A stretch of 34,150 bases of DNA from Clostridia bacterium (GTDB lineage: Bacteria; Bacillota; Clostridia; Lachnospirales; Lachnospiraceae): positions 1 to 34,150 of the forward strand of contig JAQXQS010000141.1 of assembly GCA_029101305.1 (NCBI GenBank), written 5' to 3'. Under the pieces are notes generated by a model. The model searched no databases. It was not told where the DNA came from and was given only the letters and a program-made list of their open reading frames with translations. Of the stretch, positions 1-8,311 are shown piece after piece. Both the position numbers and the translations under genes were made by a program. Within the stretch, counting starts at the first letter, position 1. Each line of letters begins with the position of its first letter.

Positions 1-131
1 AAGTGTGTAAGTTGTGTTTAAAAGCCCTGGACGGCTGAATTCGATGGAGCGCCGTGTGCGGTGAAAGTCGCATGCACGGTGTGGAGCGGGGGAAAATCCG
101 GAGATAACTTCAAAGGATTACCTATCGCTAT
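1..131 (+). mobile_element. 3' end of a group II intron (domains V and VI)
   Basis: A domain V-like hairpin lies at about 50-90: an AGC triad, then two arms around the central GTGAAAGTCGC segment typical of bacterial group II introns. A domain VI-like stem follows (AATCC at about 94-98 paired with GGATT at about 115-119), with an A just 3' of it that could be the branch point. The intron then ends in CTATCGCTAT near position 131. The 5' part of the intron and its reverse transcriptase gene lie outside the window, so class and activity cannot be judged. The exact 3' splice site is inferred from the usual AY terminus. Confidence 0.75.
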
Positions 132-189
132 CTGGCGCAAAATCTCAGGGCATGAAACACTTAATGTCTTCTATGTGAAAAGATTTTAA
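132..189 (+). pseudogene. C-terminal tail of an intron-interrupted gene (partial)
   Basis: Directly after the inferred intron end one frame stays open for 18 codons: WRKISGHETLNVFYVKRF, then TAA. The GHETLNV segment is loosely like the end of tyrosine recombinases (GH....T...Y), but this is too short for a firm call. Since the intron abuts it, the upstream exon would lie beyond the left edge. It could equally be non-coding flank. TnpV-like genes often sit near recombinase genes in Clostridial transposons, which fits but does not prove the reading. Confidence 0.3.
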
Positions 190-252
190 AGGAAAAACGC
201 ACATCCTACGCAGATAACATGACAATTTCATGAAAAGCGAAAGGAAATCATT

Positions 253-732
253 ATGAAAATCGAATACACAAAAGTGGGAGACTATTATTTACCGAATCTT
301 TACTATCCGGAGGAAACTAGACCGATTGGATTCTGGGGAATGCTTCGGAAGGAATATCTGAAAGAACATAAGCCTGGAACTTATACATATCTTCTTCTAA
401 CCGCCAGACTGGACAGCTATCTGGTAGATCTGAATGAACAGGCACAGGAATGCTTTGAGCTGATTGAAGCTCAAATGCAAAGTACGGAGGGAGTTACCGA
501 GGAACTGAGGAGACAGAATCCTATGGAATGGGTACGCCACTGCAACAATATCCGCAACCGGGCTGCTGAAATCATCGAACTGGTTTGGATGCCCGAATCT
601 GAACTGTACAAGGGAGAGAATTCATCTGGTAGCCATGCTTGCAACGGATGCAGAAATGAAAAAGAATCTTTACAAGGTATGCAGATTCCTCGCAAGAGAA
701 GAAATCGCATATCGGTATTCAATCATGTATGA
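253..732 (+). pseudogene. tnpV: TnpV-like transposon protein with disrupted 3' end
   Basis: The first 115 or so residues match the TnpV family carried by Clostridial Tn4451-type and related elements: a start MKIEYTKVGDYYLPNL, the RPIGFWGMLRKEYLKEHKP block, then GVTEELRRQNPMEWV and the AAEII helix. TnpV proteins usually stop soon after this helix. Here the frame runs on for about 40 residues of Ser/Asn/Arg-rich sequence unlike the family, which suggests a frameshift or recombination junction near 580-620. The ribosome binding site is GAAAGGAAA just upstream of the ATG. The biochemical role of TnpV is not well defined; it serves here as a marker of transposon remnants. Confidence 0.6.
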
Positions 733-799
733 AATGATTCGGAAAATGTTTTCGCCGGATGATACCTATCCACCGGAAGCATGTAAAGGAGTATATTGA
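635..799 (+). CDS. possible small ORF overlapping the tnpV 3' end
   Basis: In another frame an ATG at 635 opens 54 codons ending TGA at 797-799. The product is lysine- and arginine-rich with helical character (MLATDAEMKKNLYKVCRFLA, then a Tyr/Met-rich helix containing RKMFSPDD). Its amino acid composition is more protein-like than the overlapping tnpV extension, so this may be the true frame of a gene fused to the tnpV remnant. There is no clear ribosome binding site and I do not recognise the family. Confidence 0.25.
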   Translation: MLATDAEMKKNLYKVCRFLAREEIAYRYSIMYEMIRKMFSPDDTYPPEACKGVY

Positions 800-859
800 C
801 CCGTTTACGGGTGAGCCAGTAATCAAAAGCAACAAGAAAAAGTAAGTCCAAGGGACTTT

Positions 860-990
860 GCAAGTAACTGATGTTGCGGCTGGCGAGCCTTTCGATGAGT
901 CTTTAGACTCCAGCGCCGGAAACGAACCCTTATAGGGCGGAGAACAAACCACCGGCTTAGCCGGTGGTTATGATTATATATTTTTTTATT
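860..990 (+). mobile_element. hairpin-rich IS200/IS605-like right-end remnant
   Basis: No gene covers 800-1138. This part holds a run of stem-loops: GAGTC-TTTA-GACTC inside a larger GGCG/CGCC stem, a CCC/GGG hairpin in CCCTTATAGGG, and a strong terminal hairpin AACCACCGGC (947-956), loop TTA, GCCGGTGGTT (960-969), followed by an AT-rich tract with seven T. The order of structured RNA then terminal hairpin resembles the right end and omega-RNA region of TnpB-carrying elements. No tnpA or tnpB coding sequence is present, so this would be an orphan end. It could also serve as a simple terminator for the upstream remnants. Confidence 0.4.
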
Positions 991-1053
991 GCTTTTGGGA
1001 AAATCAGTCTATATAATTAATTTATCAGACTATTATAACGAAATGGTAAACGA

Positions 1054-1059
1054 TATAAT
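1054..1059 (+). promoter_or_regulatory. candidate -10 box of the mcrB operon
   Basis: A perfect TATAAT lies 80 bases before the mcrB start, but the -35 region 17 bases upstream (TATTAT) is poor, so an activator or another element may be needed. A partial palindrome AGTCT...AGACT (about 1005-1030) sits just upstream and could be an operator. The mcrB ribosome binding site is AAAGAGGAC before 1139. Confidence 0.4.
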
Positions 1060-1138
1060 CTGTGTGAAAATATAGTGTATAGAAAGTATCTGGAAAAATG
1101 CACAGATAAATAATACATAGAAAAAAGAGGACAATGAA

Positions 1139-3127
1139 ATGTACAGAGCAAACAGTTACCTCCCCTTGCTGGAATATGTAAATGGTGGCCAGGACCGGGC
1201 TACATTAATGGAAGACAAGGAGTTTGAAAAAAAGCTTAATAGTGCTTTTTTTAGAATTGTTGACGATATCAGAGATGAGTTTCCGGGGTTGGTTTATAAC
1301 AACCATAATGGATATAAGATAAATAAAGAAAACTTTGATCTCTGTTTGAAAGACGAAAACTATAAAAAGGATCCGAAAAGTATCTACCTTTATTTTGAAA
1401 AAGAACCAGGTATGGAAAGTGCCTGTATTTATGTATGCCTGAGTATTAATCCTACAGTTCTTGCACAGAAAGAAGAGTGCGATAAGTATTACAGGTTCCT
1501 GGATTGTGGAATTGACAGGGATTACTTGCGATATGTGATGCATTATAATATGGGACATAGAAAATGGAACGTTAAAAGATATCATGAAATAAATACAGAG
1601 GACATCACAGATAAAGAGCAGGCATACCAGTGGCTTGAAAGAGAAGGCCAGAATTGTAATATTGAATTATGTTATCTTGTAGTATTTGATAAGAAAAAAA
1701 AAGAAGAGGAAATTTCAAATGAAGTAAGAAAAGCTGTGAAAATGCTGCTTCCATATTATGAGTATGTACTTGGAATCAAAAGTCTGGAAGAGACGAGAGA
1801 GATAATTGCGATTAATGATGTGGAAGATAGTTTTTTTACTGAATCAGAGAATGTTCCGGAAAAAGAAATGGTTCCAGAAGGGGAAGAAAAGACTCTTGAA
1901 GAAGAGAACAATCTGAAGGAAAAAACCATTTCAAAATCAGAAGATCTGGAATCAGAAAATCCAGAATCAAAGGATTCCGAATCGGAAAAGCGATCATCCA
2001 GAGAAAGCCAGTTTGACCATAACCTTATTTTATACGGCCCGCCAGGAACTGGAAAAACCTATAAAACAGTCACTTATGCAGTTGCAATCTGCAATGGCGA
2101 GGATGTAAAAAAACTGGAAACCTATGGGTATGAGAATATTAAAAGTCGATATGACAGCTTGAAAAAAGAGAACAGAATCTGCTTTACAACCTTCCATCAG
2201 TCCTACAACTATGAAGATTTTGTAGAGGGAATCCGTCCGGTGCTGGATGAAGATCAGGCATCGGGAAAGAAGGATGACGATTCGGTTGCAGGGAATAGCT
2301 CCAGTCAGATTAAATATAAGATGGAAAAAGGCATTTTCCGTAAATTCTGTGAAGAATATGCCGCAAAACACAGAGAGAAAAATTTTGTTTTCATCATAGA
2401 TGAGCTGAACCGGGGGAATGTTTCCCAGATTTTTGGTGAGCTGATGACATTGATCGAGACCAGTAAAAGAGATACAGCCTCTGTGGTTCTTCCAGGTTCA
2501 AGAGTGGAATTTTCTGTTCCTTCCAACGTATATATTATCGGCACCATGAACACTGCAGACCGTTCCCTGGCGGCGCTTGACGCGGCATTCCGCAGACGTT
2601 TTTCTTTTAAAGAGATTATGCCAAGGCCGGAAACCTTACGGGAAATGAAAGCAGATAAGGTGGAATATGAAGATGAAAATGGGCAGACTGGTGTGATTGA
2701 TATAGTAGAAATGCTGAAGCTGATAAATAGGAGAATCGAATTTTTGTACGACAGGGATCACACTATCGGACACGCTTATTTCAATGAAATGTGTGGTGAA
2801 AAAGCCACAATGGAGAATCTGGAAAAAGCATTCCGAAATAAGATATTCCCTCTTTTGCAGGAGTATTTCTTTGACGATTATGCCAAAATACATATGATTC
2901 TTGGGGATAATGGCAAGCCTTCCAAGTATCAGTTTGTACAGAAAAAATATCTGAAAAAGAGTGGTACACCACAGGCAGATGAATATGAAAATCCATTCCT
3001 TGATGACTATGACAGATCTGGCTACACAGAAGATATTTATGAGCTTCCAGAAGTTTATTATGAGATAAACTGGGAAGCGTTTGGAAATCCAATTAGTTAT
3101 CGGCATATTTATGAAAAATATATTTAA
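1139..3127 (+). CDS. mcrB: McrB-type AAA+ GTPase of a modification-dependent restriction system
   Basis: McrB is the motor subunit of the McrBC type IV restriction enzyme; it binds modified DNA and uses GTP to translocate and activate the McrC nuclease. Residues 1 to about 220 look like the MrcB N-terminal DNA-recognition domain (DUF3578-like). A long Glu/Ser/Lys-rich linker follows at about 235-290. The AAA+ core has Walker A GPPGTGKT at 300-307, Walker B FIIDELNRG with Asp421, and the McrB signature MNTADRSL beginning at 470, which includes the guanine-specificity Asn/Asp, then AFRRRF. Length of 662 aa exceeds E. coli McrB, mainly through the N-terminal domain and linker. The ATG follows AAAGAGGAC. 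mcrC overlaps or directly abuts the 3' end, so they are translationally coupled. The modification recognised cannot be predicted. Confidence 0.93.
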   Translation: MYRANSYLPLLEYVNGGQDRATLMEDKEFEKKLNSAFFRIVDDIRDEFPGLVYNNHNGYKINKENFDLCLKDENYKKDPKSIYLYFEKEPGMESACIYVCLSINPTVLAQKEECDKYYRFLDCGIDRDYLRYVMHYNMGHRKWNVKRYHEINTEDITDKEQAYQWLEREGQNCNIELCYLVVFDKKKKEEEISNEVRKAVKMLLPYYEYVLGIKSLEETREIIAINDVEDSFFTESENVPEKEMVPEGEEKTLEEENNLKEKTISKSEDLESENPESKDSESEKRSSRESQFDHNLILYGPPGTGKTYKTVTYAVAICNGEDVKKLETYGYENIKSRYDSLKKENRICFTTFHQSYNYEDFVEGIRPVLDEDQASGKKDDDSVAGNSSSQIKYKMEKGIFRKFCEEYAAKHREKNFVFIIDELNRGNVSQIFGELMTLIETSKRDTASVVLPGSRVEFSVPSNVYIIGTMNTADRSLAALDAAFRRRFSFKEIMPRPETLREMKADKVEYEDENGQTGVIDIVEMLKLINRRIEFLYDRDHTIGHAYFNEMCGEKATMENLEKAFRNKIFPLLQEYFFDDYAKIHMILGDNGKPSKYQFVQKKYLKKSGTPQADEYENPFLDDYDRSGYTEDIYELPEVYYEINWEAFGNPISYRHIYEKYI

Positions 3128-3146
3128 CAAATCAGAAAGCATAGTT

Positions 3147-4460
3147 ATGGAAAAATTACTTGAAATAAGAGAGTATGATAAGATCACCTGTTCCGAAAGA
3201 TACCGGAATTCCGCTGCTTATAAATTTCTGGAACCAGAAGTTTATCAGGAATTATATGATTATGTAGAAAAAGTAACCAGAAACCAGAAAAAAGAGAAAT
3301 CTCCTTTTATGCTGATACACTGGGAAGCTGGTGTGGGGGAAGTAATAGAAGCCAGGAATTTTGTTGGTCTGGTTCAACTGGAAAGTGGAATGAAGATTCA
3401 GATTGTGCCCAAAATGGAATTGGCTCTAGAGGAAAATAAAAGCAGAAAAGTTCTTCTGAACATGCTTAAAGAGATGAAGGATTTCTCTGGCTGGAATCTG
3501 CCGGAAGCCAGAGTAATAAGCGGTTCAACCAATCTTTATGACATTTTTATAGATATGTACATCAGGGAAGCGAAGACGCTGGTGAAGAGGGGGATCCGTT
3601 CGGATTATGTTGAAAAAGAAGGAAATCTGACCAGTTACAAGGGAAAATTGCTTGTTGCAAGACAGATCCGGGAAAATATGGTCCATCAGGAACGGTTCTA
3701 TGTGCGTTACCAGGAATATAGCCAGAACAGAGCGGAAAACCGTATTATAAAAACCACATTAATGAAGCTGAAAAAAGCAACTTCCAATGGAAAACAAACG
3801 CAGGAAATCAAAAAGCTTTTGTCAGCTTTTGAGGAGATTTCGGTATCTTCTGATATCAAAAATGACTTTGCGAAAGTGAGGACAGACCGGAATTCCAAAG
3901 AATATGAACAGATCCTGAAATGGTCAAGAGTGTTTCTGGAAAATGAAAGCTTTGGCTGCTTTGCGGGAGAAGAAAAGGCGAGATCCCTGCTTTTTCCAAT
4001 GGAAGAACTGTATGAAAATTATGTTGCCTGCAGACTGAAAAAGCATCCGGAAAATACCTGGAAAGTGTCTGTTCAGGATGGAGGACATACCCTGTTTGAT
4101 ACACCTAAAATGTTTAAAATACGTCCGGATATTGTGCTCCGGAAAGATGGAAGATGTGTAATCCTGGACACGAAATGGAAATTGCTAGAGGGAAGCAGAT
4201 GGAATAATTACGGAATAAAAAGTGCAGATATGTACCAGATGTATGCCTATTCCAAACGCTATAAGGCACAGGATATCTGGCTGCTTTATCCACAGACAGA
4301 GTGGATGCGGAACCAGGAACCGGTACTGTATGATTCTGGAGAAAACGACGCAGGTTTTCCTACAAGAATCCATATATTCGGCGTGGATGTAACAGATATC
4401 AATGCCAGCCTGGCACGATTATTAGAAAAACTGGAAGTGGATGCTGGAAATGGCATATGA
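3147..4460 (+). CDS. mcrC: McrC-type nuclease subunit
   Basis: McrC supplies the endonuclease of McrBC and stimulates McrB GTP hydrolysis. The N-terminal part (REYDKITCSERY) matches the start of McrC proteins. The C-terminal third carries a PD-(D/E)xK nuclease core: Asp328 in IRPDIVL, then ILDTKWK with Asp341 and Lys343. I chose ATG 3147 because AGAAAG lies about 8 bases upstream and the product begins like known McrC proteins. ATG 3111, which overlaps mcrB by 17 bases, and TTG 3081 are also open. The product is 437 aa. The catalytic residues are intact, so the enzyme is expected to be active. Confidence 0.9.
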   Translation: MEKLLEIREYDKITCSERYRNSAAYKFLEPEVYQELYDYVEKVTRNQKKEKSPFMLIHWEAGVGEVIEARNFVGLVQLESGMKIQIVPKMELALEENKSRKVLLNMLKEMKDFSGWNLPEARVISGSTNLYDIFIDMYIREAKTLVKRGIRSDYVEKEGNLTSYKGKLLVARQIRENMVHQERFYVRYQEYSQNRAENRIIKTTLMKLKKATSNGKQTQEIKKLLSAFEEISVSSDIKNDFAKVRTDRNSKEYEQILKWSRVFLENESFGCFAGEEKARSLLFPMEELYENYVACRLKKHPENTWKVSVQDGGHTLFDTPKMFKIRPDIVLRKDGRCVILDTKWKLLEGSRWNNYGIKSADMYQMYAYSKRYKAQDIWLLYPQTEWMRNQEPVLYDSGENDAGFPTRIHIFGVDVTDINASLARLLEKLEVDAGNGI

Positions 4461-4500
4461 AAACAGAAAAAAATCAATAGAAAGAGAAGTAACCTAAAAA

Positions 4501-5721
4501 GTGCTGCCAGAAGAAAATAATACAGAAAATAGAAACACAAAAGATCGCAACACAGAAGATAATAACACAGAAAACAATAACAGGCAGGGAGCAAAAAGCA
4601 GCTCGTATATCGCTATATCAGAGAAGCTAAAAAGCTTCCGTCCAGGAGCAATAAAAACAGTAAAGCATTATCCAACAGGAATCCGGGAACTGGATAAAAA
4701 ACTGGGCGGCGGTCTGTATCCTGGGCTGATTTTTCTTGGTGCCCGGCCTGGTATGGGAAAAAGTACTCTTGCGCTTCAGATCGCTTCTGAGGTGGCAGCA
4801 GGAGGCACATCTGTGCTGTTTTATTCCCTGGAAATGCCTTCAATCCGAATAGAGTCCAAGATACTGAACCGGGCTGTCCATATGAAAGAACCAGATCTGG
4901 AAATCACATCAGACTGGCTCCTTCGGGCAGAGAATAAGGATAAGGAAGAAGAATGGGAATTTGTGGAAGAAGTGCAGGAAGAAGTTGGTCCCAGATATAA
5001 AAAATTATATGTAAAAGAACGGGAAAAGATTATTTTTTCAGCAGAAGATATCATTAAAGATGTGGAGAAATTTATAGATGAAACGAATGAAAAACCAGTG
5101 GTCTTTATAGATTATCTTCAGATTCTGTCAGCATGCAGCTCATCAAGAAACATGACAGAGAAGCAGAAAAATGATGAAAATATAAATGTTCTCAGCAGCC
5201 TTTCCAATAAGCATGATCTGGTTGTTTTTGTGATCAGTTCCTTAAACAGAGAAGCGTATAAAAATGCCCAGAAGCCCATGCAGATGGATTCCTTTAAGGA
5301 GACTGGAGGCATCGAATATTCTGCCAGTGTGATCCTGGGATTGCAGCTGAGAAATGTTCAGCTGGCAGGAATTGACCATGAAGGAGAAATGTCAAAGGCA
5401 GCAAGAAAACTGGAACTGGTTTTTCTGAAACAGCGCTATGGGGTAACTGGAAGCGGTGCAAATGTGTCTCTGGATTTTTATCCGGCATGGGATCTTTACA
5501 AAGAGTGCGATGCAGATAAGAGTTCAGATGATAGTGGGATTGATACAAAGCAGTCTGTTTCCGGGGAAGGGAAGCGCTTTATTAAAGCTGCAGAAATGCC
5601 GTTGGAAATGCCGTTAGAGGTGCGCGAAAAAACAGAAACAGGACAGAACGAATTCGTTCCGGAAGACGAATACAGTAGGGGCTTGTTTGAGAAATTTTTA
5701 AGTATGCCGGATGAAGAATAG
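4501..5721 (+). CDS. stand-alone DnaB-type RecA-fold ATPase/helicase domain protein
   Basis: The protein matches the C-terminal motor domain of the replicative helicase DnaB and lacks the DnaB N-terminal domain. Walker A is GARPGMGKST at 80-89, Walker B is VFIDYLQIL with Asp204, followed by the sensor-like VISSLNRE and an arginine-finger region LKQRYGVTG, equivalent to KHRNGPTG in DnaB. Residues 5-28 are an Asn/Thr/Glu repeat and the last 70 residues are acidic and low in complexity. The start is GTG 4501, since a stop codon lies two codons upstream and no other early start exists; the ribosome binding site (AAGAGAAG) is weak. It begins 40 bases after mcrC and probably shares its transcript. 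It could load or remodel DNA for the restriction complex, or be a replication helicase of the host element. Confidence 0.8.
   Translation: MLPEENNTENRNTKDRNTEDNNTENNNRQGAKSSSYIAISEKLKSFRPGAIKTVKHYPTGIRELDKKLGGGLYPGLIFLGARPGMGKSTLALQIASEVAAGGTSVLFYSLEMPSIRIESKILNRAVHMKEPDLEITSDWLLRAENKDKEEEWEFVEEVQEEVGPRYKKLYVKEREKIIFSAEDIIKDVEKFIDETNEKPVVFIDYLQILSACSSSRNMTEKQKNDENINVLSSLSNKHDLVVFVISSLNREAYKNAQKPMQMDSFKETGGIEYSASVILGLQLRNVQLAGIDHEGEMSKAARKLELVFLKQRYGVTGSGANVSLDFYPAWDLYKECDADKSSDDSGIDTKQSVSGEGKRFIKAAEMPLEMPLEVREKTETGQNEFVPEDEYSRGLFEKFLSMPDEE
4519..4578 (+). repeat. 15-bp coding tandem repeat (Asn-Thr-Glu-rich pentapeptide)
   Basis: Four consecutive five-codon units at the N-terminus of the DnaB-like protein encode NTENR, NTKDR, NTEDN and NTENN. 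The pattern is AACACAGAA plus two variable codons. Such units can change copy number by slippage and give a flexible polar leader ahead of the ATPase domain. Confidence 0.8.
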
Positions 5722-5735
5722 AAGGAGTAACTATT

Positions 5736-6707
5736 ATGTGGCTGCCTGCAAATACATACATTAATATATGCAAACTGGCACAGGAAATATTTAAAAATCA
5801 TTATAAAACAGGGTGCAGAAATACCATAGAGGTTGGAAGCCGCAACCGGCCGATGACCTGTACCTATCTTCTGGATATGCCGGAATCTGTAGCGCAAAAA
5901 GGCTTTACTTTTTATGACAGTGTGGTTCATGATGCCATTTATACACTGCAAAGATATGGGAAAGAACGGATCACGCTTACGGATATCCTGCGGATCATGG
6001 CATATGATGATAAACTGCGCCTTTTTTATCAGAAAGATACCCCGCAAAAAAGAGAACTGCGCCTGCGGGAAGCAGTGGAGAAGCTGATGAGTACAGGAAT
6101 TGCCATTGATTTCAGGGAAGAAGTGAAAAAAAGAAACCTTGTTGATTCAGAGGGGAAACTTATTTCCGGAATCCTGGCAGATAAAATGGTGCCTCTTGAA
6201 GCCGATGAAGATGGAAAAACATTCTGGTTTATTGAGGGGAAAAAGCTTCCGGTTTTTCAATATGCAGAGTACATAAAGCAGATTATCTGTGTGCCTGGGA
6301 CATTGATGACACCTGAAAAATATCCCTTTTCCAATACAGATGAAGTGATCCTTCTGAAACGGATCCTGATACAACGGCTGGAGATTATGGCTAACGAAAA
6401 GAATCATCTGAAGAGCCAGAAAATCCGGTATTATGGGGAAGGAAAAGAGGATGGAATCTTACCTTTGATCGGAATTAAAAAAGAAAATTTTGCCCAGGAA
6501 GAGGTGCATCAAAGAAAAACTTCCCGGGTCAGATATGAGAGCAGGGGATGGAAAAATAAGGTGCATGACCTCGATAAAAAAGTACAGATCATACTGGAAG
6601 CCTACAAAAAATGCGGCTATATCGAGGACTATGTACCTTTGAGAAATGGCCCGAGAGAACTGGTAAGAGGAGTTGAAATCCTCGGAGAAATACACCGGGC
6701 AAATTAA
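5736..6707 (+). CDS. replication-initiator-like winged-helix protein, fourth gene of the mcrBC operon
   Basis: No function can be assigned with certainty. The block at about 55-115 (GFTFYDSVVHDAIYTLQRYG, then ITLTDILRIM, then REAVEKLMSTGIAIDF) resembles the paired winged-helix layout of replication-initiator-like proteins of Clostridial plasmids and integrative elements. The later block with NTDEVILLKRILIQRLEIM and a basic region near 240-275 fits the same family from memory. The 323-aa product has no signal peptide or membrane segment. GAAGGAG overlaps the stop of the helicase gene and lies nine bases from the ATG, so coupling is clear. With the DnaB-like neighbour it forms an initiator plus helicase pair, which may be the replication module of a mobile element or an accessory of the McrBC system. 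Confidence 0.55.
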   Translation: MWLPANTYINICKLAQEIFKNHYKTGCRNTIEVGSRNRPMTCTYLLDMPESVAQKGFTFYDSVVHDAIYTLQRYGKERITLTDILRIMAYDDKLRLFYQKDTPQKRELRLREAVEKLMSTGIAIDFREEVKKRNLVDSEGKLISGILADKMVPLEADEDGKTFWFIEGKKLPVFQYAEYIKQIICVPGTLMTPEKYPFSNTDEVILLKRILIQRLEIMANEKNHLKSQKIRYYGEGKEDGILPLIGIKKENFAQEEVHQRKTSRVRYESRGWKNKVHDLDKKVQIILEAYKKCGYIEDYVPLRNGPRELVRGVEILGEIHRAN

Positions 6708-6779
6708 TTAACATCCAATGTTAAACATTTTGCAGATTGCATTAAATAACTCAGTACAGCTATTAAAATTAAAACACAT
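6708..6779 (-). CDS. possible 23-aa Cys-rich peptide
   Basis: On the minus strand an ATG at 6779 opens 23 codons beginning MCFNFNSCTELFNAICKMF and ending in Cys, with cysteines at 2, 8, 16 and 23. AAGGAGGTCC lies eight bases upstream, a near-perfect ribosome binding site, and a promoter-like pair sits further upstream (6827-6855). The stop codon abuts the end of the convergent initiator-like gene. No family is recognised. It may be a secreted or regulatory peptide, or a chance ORF behind a strong site. Confidence 0.4.
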   Translation of the reverse strand: MCFNFNSCTELFNAICKMFNIGC

Positions 6780-6785
6780 AGTTTG

Positions 6786-6864
6786 GACCTCCTTATTGTT
6801 TTATGTATCAGCTGATTACAAATAAGATTGTAATATATTTGTAACAATTAAACAATAGGAGGTC
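6786..6864. repeat. inverted repeat in the convergent intergenic region
   Basis: GACCTCCTTATTGTTT at 6786-6801 is matched by AAACAATAGGAGGTC at 6850-6864 in reverse complement, with one base inserted, around a 48-base AT-rich centre. Each arm places an AGGAGG-type site pointing outward. No T-run follows, so it is not a plain terminator. It sits at the junction between the accessory operon and the chromosomal dehydrogenase genes. Confidence 0.65.
6827..6855 (-). promoter_or_regulatory. candidate promoter for the small peptide
   Basis: Read on the minus strand there is TTGTTT (6855-6850), a 17-base spacer, then TACAAT (6832-6827). Transcription would begin near 6820, about 40 bases before the peptide ATG. 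The -35 box lies inside one arm of the inverted repeat at 6786-6864. Confidence 0.4.
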
Positions 6865-6931
6865 ACTGGGAGCTCTTCCAGATTCTGGAAATAGTGATTG
6901 TTCACTCTGTGCCGGTAACTGGAATGGGCGG

Positions 6932-8311
6932 TTATTTCAAAAATAAATGGATCAGTTTATCATAAATTCTTCGATAAGGCTGGTACCTCATAGGCAGGTC
7001 AATCCAGGTCTTCTTATCTACAATACTCTTATAATGGGAAAAAGTTTCAAACCCTTTTTCACCATGATAACTTCCCATACCACTTTCTCCAAATCCGCCA
7101 AATGGCATTTCGCTGGTGGCCAGGTGAATGATCACATCGTTGATGCATCCACCGCCAAAACCACATTCTGAGGTAACTTTTTCACAGACAGACTTGTTCT
7201 GCGAAAAAAGATAAAGTGCCAGAGGATGGGCCATGGAATTGACCTTGTGAATCACATCGTCTATAGAGTCAAACGTAAGTACCGGGAGAACCGGTCCGAA
7301 AATTTCTTCCTGCATTACTGCATCGTCAAAAGTCACCTGATCCATAACAGTAGGTTCAATCTGTAAGGTCGTGGGATTTAGATTGCCGCCGCAGATAACT
7401 TTGGCTGGATCAATCAGTCCCTGAATGCGGTTAAAATGCTTTTCATTGATGATTTTTCCATAATTTTTATTATCAAGGGGAGACTTTCCAAACTGTTTCC
7501 GAATCTGTTTCTGAATCTGCTTCAGAAGCTCTTCCTTCACATTCTTGTGGCAGTAAATGTAGTCTGGTGCTACGCAGGTCTGACCACAGTTCAGGTATTT
7601 TCCGAAAACGATACGCTTGGCAGCAAGCTTGACATTTGCCGACTGATCCACAATACAAGGGCTTTTTCCGCCAAGCTCCAGGGTGACTGGTGTCAGATGT
7701 TCGCTTGCGTGACGCATAACTTCTTTTCCTACAGCCTGGCTGCCGGTGAAAAAGATATAGTCGAAGTGTTCCTGGAGAAGACAGGAATTTTCCTCACGAC
7801 CGCCCATGACGACAGCAACATATTCCTCGGGGAAGCATTCCCGTACGATCTCGCAGATGATCTGGCTGGTGGCAGGTGAATATGCGCTGGGTTTCAGGAC
7901 AGCAGTATTTCCGGCGGTGATGGCATCTACCAGTGGCTCAAAAGTGAGAAGAAATGGATAGTTCCAGGGGCTCATGATCAGGGTAACGCCGTAAGGAGAT
8001 GGTTTCATGTAGCTTCTGGAATGGAACTGGGCAAGTGGTGTGTGCACGGTCTTTTCCCTGGAAAGGGAACGGATGTTTTTCAGCATGTAAGTGATTTCGC
8101 TGAGGACAAGACCGGATTCACACATATAACTTTCGAAGCTGCTTTTTCCAAGGTCTGTATGCAGGGCGGCGTTGATCTGCTCCTGATGGGACTGGATGGA
8201 GGTTTGCAGTTTTTTTATGGCATTGATGCGAAAATCAATGTCTAAGGTAGCACCTGTGTAAAAATAGGTTCGTTGTCTGCGGATGATTTCCTGGATTGCT
8301 TCCTGGGTCAT
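6932..8311 (-). CDS. aldehyde dehydrogenase, class 3-like
   Basis: NAD(P)-dependent oxidation of an aldehyde to the acid. The 459-aa length, the C-terminal hydrophobic tail and the sequence fit the class 3/AlkH-like group that acts on medium- or long-chain aldehydes. The catalytic Glu212 lies in TLELGGKSP and the nucleophile Cys246 in NCGQTCVAPDY; MSPWNYPF and EEIFGPVLPV are also present. The start is placed at 8311 (MTQEAIQEI) after GAAAGGAC. A longer frame to 8386 only translates repeat B and is rejected. The gene follows the iron alcohol dehydrogenase on the same strand, so they probably form an alcohol-aldehyde-acid pair. Substrate is unknown. Confidence 0.92.
   Translation of the reverse strand: MTQEAIQEIIRRQRTYFYTGATLDIDFRINAIKKLQTSIQSHQEQINAALHTDLGKSSFESYMCESGLVLSEITYMLKNIRSLSREKTVHTPLAQFHSRSYMKPSPYGVTLIMSPWNYPFLLTFEPLVDAITAGNTAVLKPSAYSPATSQIICEIVRECFPEEYVAVVMGGREENSCLLQEHFDYIFFTGSQAVGKEVMRHASEHLTPVTLELGGKSPCIVDQSANVKLAAKRIVFGKYLNCGQTCVAPDYIYCHKNVKEELLKQIQKQIRKQFGKSPLDNKNYGKIINEKHFNRIQGLIDPAKVICGGNLNPTTLQIEPTVMDQVTFDDAVMQEEIFGPVLPVLTFDSIDDVIHKVNSMAHPLALYLFSQNKSVCEKVTSECGFGGGCINDVIIHLATSEMPFGGFGESGMGSYHGEKGFETFSHYKSIVDKKTWIDLPMRYQPYRRIYDKLIHLFLK

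Follow-up and report, generated by a model that had tools for sequence, protein, structure and literature searches.

Four neighbouring genes of a Blautia genome raise the question of whether an McrBC restriction system has acquired two replication-like partners, or whether two separate units have come to stand side by side. The window analysed here is an entire contig of this genome (label G000), 34,150 bases long. Positions 1139 to 6707 hold four intact genes on the same strand: mcrB, mcrC, a DnaB-type ATPase gene downstream of mcrC, here named P4, and the gene after it, P5 (Table 1). The gaps between them measure 22, 40 and 14 bases. Coordinates, strand and gaps all confirm the tight, one-direction arrangement described in the original prediction.

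An AGGAG-type site ahead of P5 was recognised by eye, and no terminator-like site was found on the same strand in the gaps between the four genes. Taken with the tight same-strand packing, this fits an operon. Co-transcription of mcrBC with P4-P5 is possible, and a local functional link thus stays conceivable. Base composition proved of no use as a discriminator: the G+C fractions of the four genes (0.377, 0.405, 0.421 and 0.417) and those of ten flanking genes (0.416-0.493) separate none of the readings considered below.

Table 1. Coordinates of features in the window and of helicase/P5 fusion clusters in other genomes
Feature	Position	Strand	Basis and remarks
Group II intron, 3' part, at the contig's left end	47..131	+	Rfam RF00029, 61.2 bits, E 1.6e-10
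tnpV, transposon-encoded protein	253..732	+	Pfam TnpV 1.1e-37
IS200/IS605-type relic with terminal hairpin	784..975	+	77.9% identity to an IS200/IS605 tnpA-annotated stretch, Vescimonas NZ_AP023416.1
mcrB	1139..3127	+	AAA+ motor part from about residue 293; N-terminal region without family match; Pfam AAA_5, NCBIfam McrB, motifs
mcrC, nuclease subunit	3150..4460	+	Pfam McrBC; RPDIVL...DTKWK
P4, DnaB C-terminal type ATPase	4501..5721	+	GTG start; Pfam DnaB_C; without DnaB N-terminal domain, without primase part
P5, plasmid-initiator-type protein, uncatalogued family	5736..6707	+	Family from relatives and their gene context
Helicase/P5 fusion clusters	L017:4434-10974, L018:4753-10961, L050:4749-10938		

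McrB and McrC

The McrB sequence matches Pfam AAA_5 (E-value = 2.2e-14) and the NCBIfam McrB model PRK11331 (5.6e-40), the latter with 137 bits, under the model's cut-off of 637 bits. It carries the motifs GPPGTGKT, IIDELNR and NTADRS, the last of which we take to be the McrB-type AAA+ signature. The gene adjoining mcrB downstream encodes a McrC protein (Pfam McrBC, 1.6e-91) with a nuclease motif of the PD-(D/E)xK type. The gene order is that of known type IV McrBC systems, and the AAA+ protein with its NTADRS-type signature next to the McrC nuclease motif suggests, at the sequence level, that the pair belongs to them. An alternative TTG start of mcrC at position 3081 would overlap mcrB; the ATG start is preferred because alignments of nearer relatives mostly begin at its residues 1-6.

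The N-terminal region of the window McrB differs from McrBC type IV in corresponding to no family of the libraries, and an AlphaFold2 model of residues 1-287 (mean pLDDT 45.6) was too poor for a fold search. The same genome contains a second mcrBC (L034:1-2732, G000:C28), followed by other genes, whose McrC is 46% identical to the window McrC. Its McrB bears about 150 residues inserted within the AAA domain, an insert that the window McrB lacks; at this site the McrB alignment has a comparable gap for most near relatives.

The DnaB-type ATPase

P4 matches Pfam DnaB_C (4.5e-30) over residues 58-327, a RecA-like domain with intact Walker A and B motifs. No model of the DnaB N-terminal domain matched P4, and no primase domain was detected in it. 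The protein thus corresponds to a DnaB motor deprived of its N-terminal half, as originally described, and differs from the DnaB-type replicative helicases, with which it shares the RecA-like C-terminal domain, by the absence of the N-terminal domain and linker. The Asn-rich start of P4 is encoded by five copies of a 15-base repeat (75% matches, window 4508-4582).

The closest resemblances of P4 are to long plasmid or plasmid-like DnaB_C proteins, at about 30-39% identity and 113-155 bits; the best named relatives are a protein of an Anaerotruncus plasmid (39%, 155 bits) and that of pSMQ308 (35%, 144 bits). The host DnaB reaches 26% identity and 65.9 bits, so that P4 stands nearer to the plasmid type than to the host enzyme. 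A tree of the helicase domains has long branches and is used here only to place the host DnaB far from P4. P4 matches were obtained in 121 plasmid records, six of which were inspected. Viral contigs contain 105 P4 relatives; the best 80 of these 105 have 22-31% identity, and tblastn detected no mcrB, mcrC or P5 with these 80.

In small Gram-positive plasmids such as pSMQ308 (NC_005322.1), it is the DnaB_C part of the long proteins that aligns with P4, with 32-39% identity, and these long proteins come with an initiator and sometimes with ParA. The window differs from them in that the primase part is absent and that P5 has no convincing match to their Rep_3-type initiators.

P5 and its family

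No entry of Pfam, NCBIfam, PADLOC or PHROGs corresponds to P5 at E-values up to 1. A profile built from 13 relatives, from which P5 itself, its Blautia luti homologue, the second copy of genome G712 and a split copy of G310 were excluded, gives P5 150.5 bits, the best of 2000 shuffled sequences scoring 14.2; since the relatives came from P5-seeded searches, this score shows that the family is real, not that it was discovered independently. With the own genome counted, P5 relatives occur in 3/61 near genomes, 3/64 of the genus, 5/397 of the family, 4/392 of the order and 4/208 of the class, in overlapping samples of one genome per species. One of them, in G889, was detected by the profile only (E-value = 2.6e-7), with no pairwise match. 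Scans of genome contigs returned no relative in a first round and B. luti alone in a second; tblastn searches of plasmids and phages with P5 gave no match, and viral contigs held no P5.

No membership in the Rep_3 family could be established: there is no Pfam match to the Rep_3 models, the hhalign comparison is unconvincing (probability 2.7%, E-value = 0.017), and a single P5 relative shows a sub-threshold Rep3_C match (E-value = 0.03). Searches of PDB sequences with two P5 profiles gave a best E-value of 0.07 (A3) and nothing up to E = 10 (A8). The AlphaFold2 model of P5, computed from two sequences, has a mean pLDDT of 41.6, too poor for a fold search. An NCBIfam mutacin match (6e-6) in 1/10 P5 relatives was taken as chance.

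Gene context of the P5 relatives

Sixteen P5 loci outside the window were available: one each in G016 (B. luti), G292, G023, G370, G100, G654, G920, G889, the fecal scaffold MT839351.1 and the Anaerotruncus plasmid NZ_CP094683.1, and two each in G310, G712 (near-identical contigs) and G885. A six-frame profile scan of 15 of them, the sixteenth (L049) being read as a copy of L048, placed a P4-like domain in the same stretch for 10/16 loci, near or adjoining the P5-like gene in nine: G016, G292, the first G310 copy, G712 twice, G885 twice, G920, MT839351.1 and NZ_CP094683.1.

For several of these relatives, located on plasmids or plasmid-like contigs, the neighbours include a ParA- or ParB-like gene. 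The G712 row runs ParA, P5-like, P4-like, TOPRIM protein. The unverified 4.7-kb scaffold MT839351.1 carries a ParB-like gene (24.4 bits, just below the cut-off of 26.3), a P5-like gene and a gene for a protein of 642 aa whose last part is a P4-like DnaB_C domain. On NZ_CP094683.1, a 637-aa DnaB_C protein beside ParA lies 11.5 kb away from the P5-like gene. In the two G885 loci and in G920, the gene after the P5-like one encodes a long protein that contains a P4-like domain, and a ParA-like gene was recognised by eye in two of these three stretches. By eye, the long proteins with P4-like domains read as primase-helicases. The order P4-P5 is shared by the window and B. luti, the other adjacent pairs having P5-P4.

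The occurrence of relatives beside a partition gene and a replicative helicase points to a family of plasmid initiators, although the six-frame scan gave no P4-like domain for six of the loci, namely G023, G889, the second copy of G310 and three helicase fusions (G370, G100 and G654). The proposal that P5 resembles replication initiators of mobile elements thereby finds support in the genes that surround its relatives rather than in homology to an established Rep family, and P5 is best described as initiator-type by context.

Distribution of mcrBC and of the P4-P5 pair

The original prediction had treated P4 and P5 as an added part of the McrBC system. None of the 16 P5 loci outside the window has mcrB or mcrC in the surrounding stretch, and none of 26 further mcrC loci, including the second mcrBC of the same genome, has P4 or P5 beside it. 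These 26 comprise the own second copy, nine loci from the family search, two from a PF10117 search, six loci of the genus, two on Priestia plasmids and six on contigs of the viral collection; flanks taken from whole genomes extend up to 1.5 kb on each side, the G088 locus ends within mcrC, G272 contributes a fragment of that gene, and L183, which looks nearly identical to L181, extends about 0.7 kb downstream. When the window McrB and McrC were compared by tblastn with 24 loci that contain relatives of P5 or P4, or their flanks (315,688 bases in all), no match appeared at E = 0.01, in a test that can miss a remote mcrC, as L031 and L032 were detected through their mcrB only.

The search for PF10117 covered nine of the 12 G genomes with a P5-type gene (all but G885, G920 and G889). 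The family occurs twice in G000, once in G292, at about 56-58 kb from the P5-P4 pair, and once in G100, on another contig, and it was found in none of the six other P5-bearing genomes, B. luti included. McrC matches were also obtained in 158 plasmid records, with neighbours inspected in two, and in five phage records. A literature search (titles and abstract openings) returned no paper on a combination of McrBC with P4/P5-type genes.

A genuine defence system of four genes, with P5 and P4 directing McrBC to replicating foreign DNA, could draw on the operon-like packing and the intactness of the genes, and is very unlikely given that no second example appeared at either set of loci, that the same genome keeps another mcrBC without P4/P5, and that the established form of McrBC consists of two genes only. 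Being a single example with packing as its sole argument, the extended system is disfavoured. A more specific version, in which a Clostridial plasmid initiator and helicase were recruited as McrBC subunits and steer restriction to the origins or forks of related incoming plasmids, would likewise have a very slim chance of being correct. The neighbourhood check named beforehand in the original prediction thus went against the added-part claim: at the loci examined, the last two genes are indeed found mostly without mcrBC. Of its two alternatives, action at replicating foreign DNA is not borne out, while the other, McrBC riding on the replication module of a mobile element, is the better half.

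The locus is probably an ordinary two-gene McrBC adjoining a plasmid-type replication pair, initiator plus helicase, that lost its plasmid. McrB, through its AAA+ ring and N-terminal sensor, would detect modified DNA, which McrC would cut without help from P4 or P5. P5 would bind an origin and bring in the P4 ring helicase, while priming would fall to the host or a lost primase. The two pairs may be co-transcribed and yet would have no joint function. The operon-like row could then mislead: a restriction system and a plasmid-type pair stand 40 bases apart, in a combination seen in none of the relatives examined.

Signs of constraint on the pair

B. luti keeps the P4-P5 pair with a P4 that lost about its first 74 residues. 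Between the window and B. luti, the differences per codon positions 1/2/3 are 0.35/0.20/0.51 for P4 (from residue 75) and 0.36/0.29/0.59 for P5. The excess at third positions in these raw per-codon counts, which are not dN/dS values, and the intactness of the genes suggest that P4 and P5 are maintained. The maintained look of the pair, like its operon-like packing, counts against the passenger account given above.

The 5' part of the B. luti P4 is replaced by unrelated DNA (L005:11450-11953), and the contig stops 0.3 kb ahead of P4. The DNA upstream of the truncated gene gave no plasmid match.

P4-P5 might instead be a domesticated pair with its own function, for example interference with incoming plasmids that use a related replication origin, McrBC being its neighbour in a defence island. 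The third-position excess agrees with this, as does the presence of P5+P4 pairs without plasmid genes in the surrounding stretch in four genomes (the window, B. luti, G292 and G310), although the recurrence of such pairs fits a kept function as well as debris. Also in its favour, the G292 pair (L015:837-11530) lies downstream of pieces that read by eye as the type I restriction genes hsdM/S/R, and P5-type domains are fused elsewhere to RecQ-like helicases beside ClpP-like and VirD4-like genes. The pair is rare and patchy, however (3/64 genus and 5/397 family genomes, own included), its P4 is 5'-truncated in B. luti, and the second P5 copy of G310, about 10 kb from the P4 of the first, is split into two frames. 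On balance we regard domestication as rather unlikely, and the loss of a plasmid around the pair as the better account.

Flanking sequences

The left flank contains a group II intron end, tnpV and an IS relic (Table 1). Positions 43-137 around the intron end are 90.5% identical to copies in Enterococcus plasmids, and the hairpin of the IS relic, CCACCGGCTTAGCCGGTGG, was read by eye. Together with the plasmid context of the P5 family, these remnants support a mobile-element reading of the pair, and the P4-P5 block most likely represents what is left of a mobile element, or else the cargo end of one that integrated. Against this reading, the window contig has no tyrosine integrase; in other genomes the nearest one on the same contig lies about 88 kb (G292), 75 kb (G310) and 49 kb (G016) from the pair. 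By eye, the window ORFs include neither a partition gene nor a serine recombinase, and no iteron-like or origin-like repeats were found in 1-7100 or 1-7200. The contig is cut at the left, and the remainder of any element lies hidden beyond that end.

On the right, a convergent gene reads by eye as an aldehyde dehydrogenase, with relatives (E-values up to 1e-100) in 41/64 Blautia genomes, own included. The flank past this gene varies from genome to genome and defines no insertion edge. Nested imperfect palindromes seen by eye at 6788-6870, in the interval that separates this gene from P5, could serve as a terminator or as a binding site; the repeat search did not report them.

A joint between mcrC and P4 created by assembly or binning would fit a 226-contig assembly in which the window is a whole contig with a repeat-type intron at its left end. 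The junction is interior to the contig, with 40 bases between intact genes, and the repeat search gave no repeat at the joint, which makes such an artefact extremely improbable.

Comparison with other elements

SCC-type cassettes, in the parts of PMC7581432 that describe them, are likewise integrated elements with replication genes and their own helicase/primase operon. Their helicases are given there as Cch, MCM-like and Cch2, P4 being instead of the DnaB type, and none of the window ORFs reads by eye as a Ccr-type recombinase. The CoCoNuT branch of McrBC, as presented in the main text of PMC11090510, resembles the locus in linking McrBC to an extra helicase, there a UPF1-like SF1 enzyme; the words "DnaB" and "replication" occur 0 times in that main text of the McrBC census.

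P5 domains fused to helicases

Apart from the question of McrBC, the P5 family is worth keeping, its window member matching no Pfam, NCBIfam, PADLOC or PHROG family while its relatives extend across Clostridial plasmids. In 3/16 loci (G370, G100 and G654) the P5-like domain forms one protein with a helicase that looks like RecQ, and Pfam DEAD and Helicase_C were found in 3/9 P5-type members. The phrog_33220 matches (3e-36), seen in 3/9 P5-type relatives and 0/8 non-fusion members, probably come from these helicase fusions. A literature search returned no paper on such a fusion beside ClpP-like and VirD4-like genes, and this is possibly an undescribed conserved cluster, also worth keeping. In three Lachnospiraceae genera the RecQ-type helicase/P5-like fusion stands beside a ClpP-like protease, a VirD4/TraG-like ATPase and small genes; Pfam confirms ClpP in L050 and VirD4/TraG in L017 and L050, the others being read by eye.
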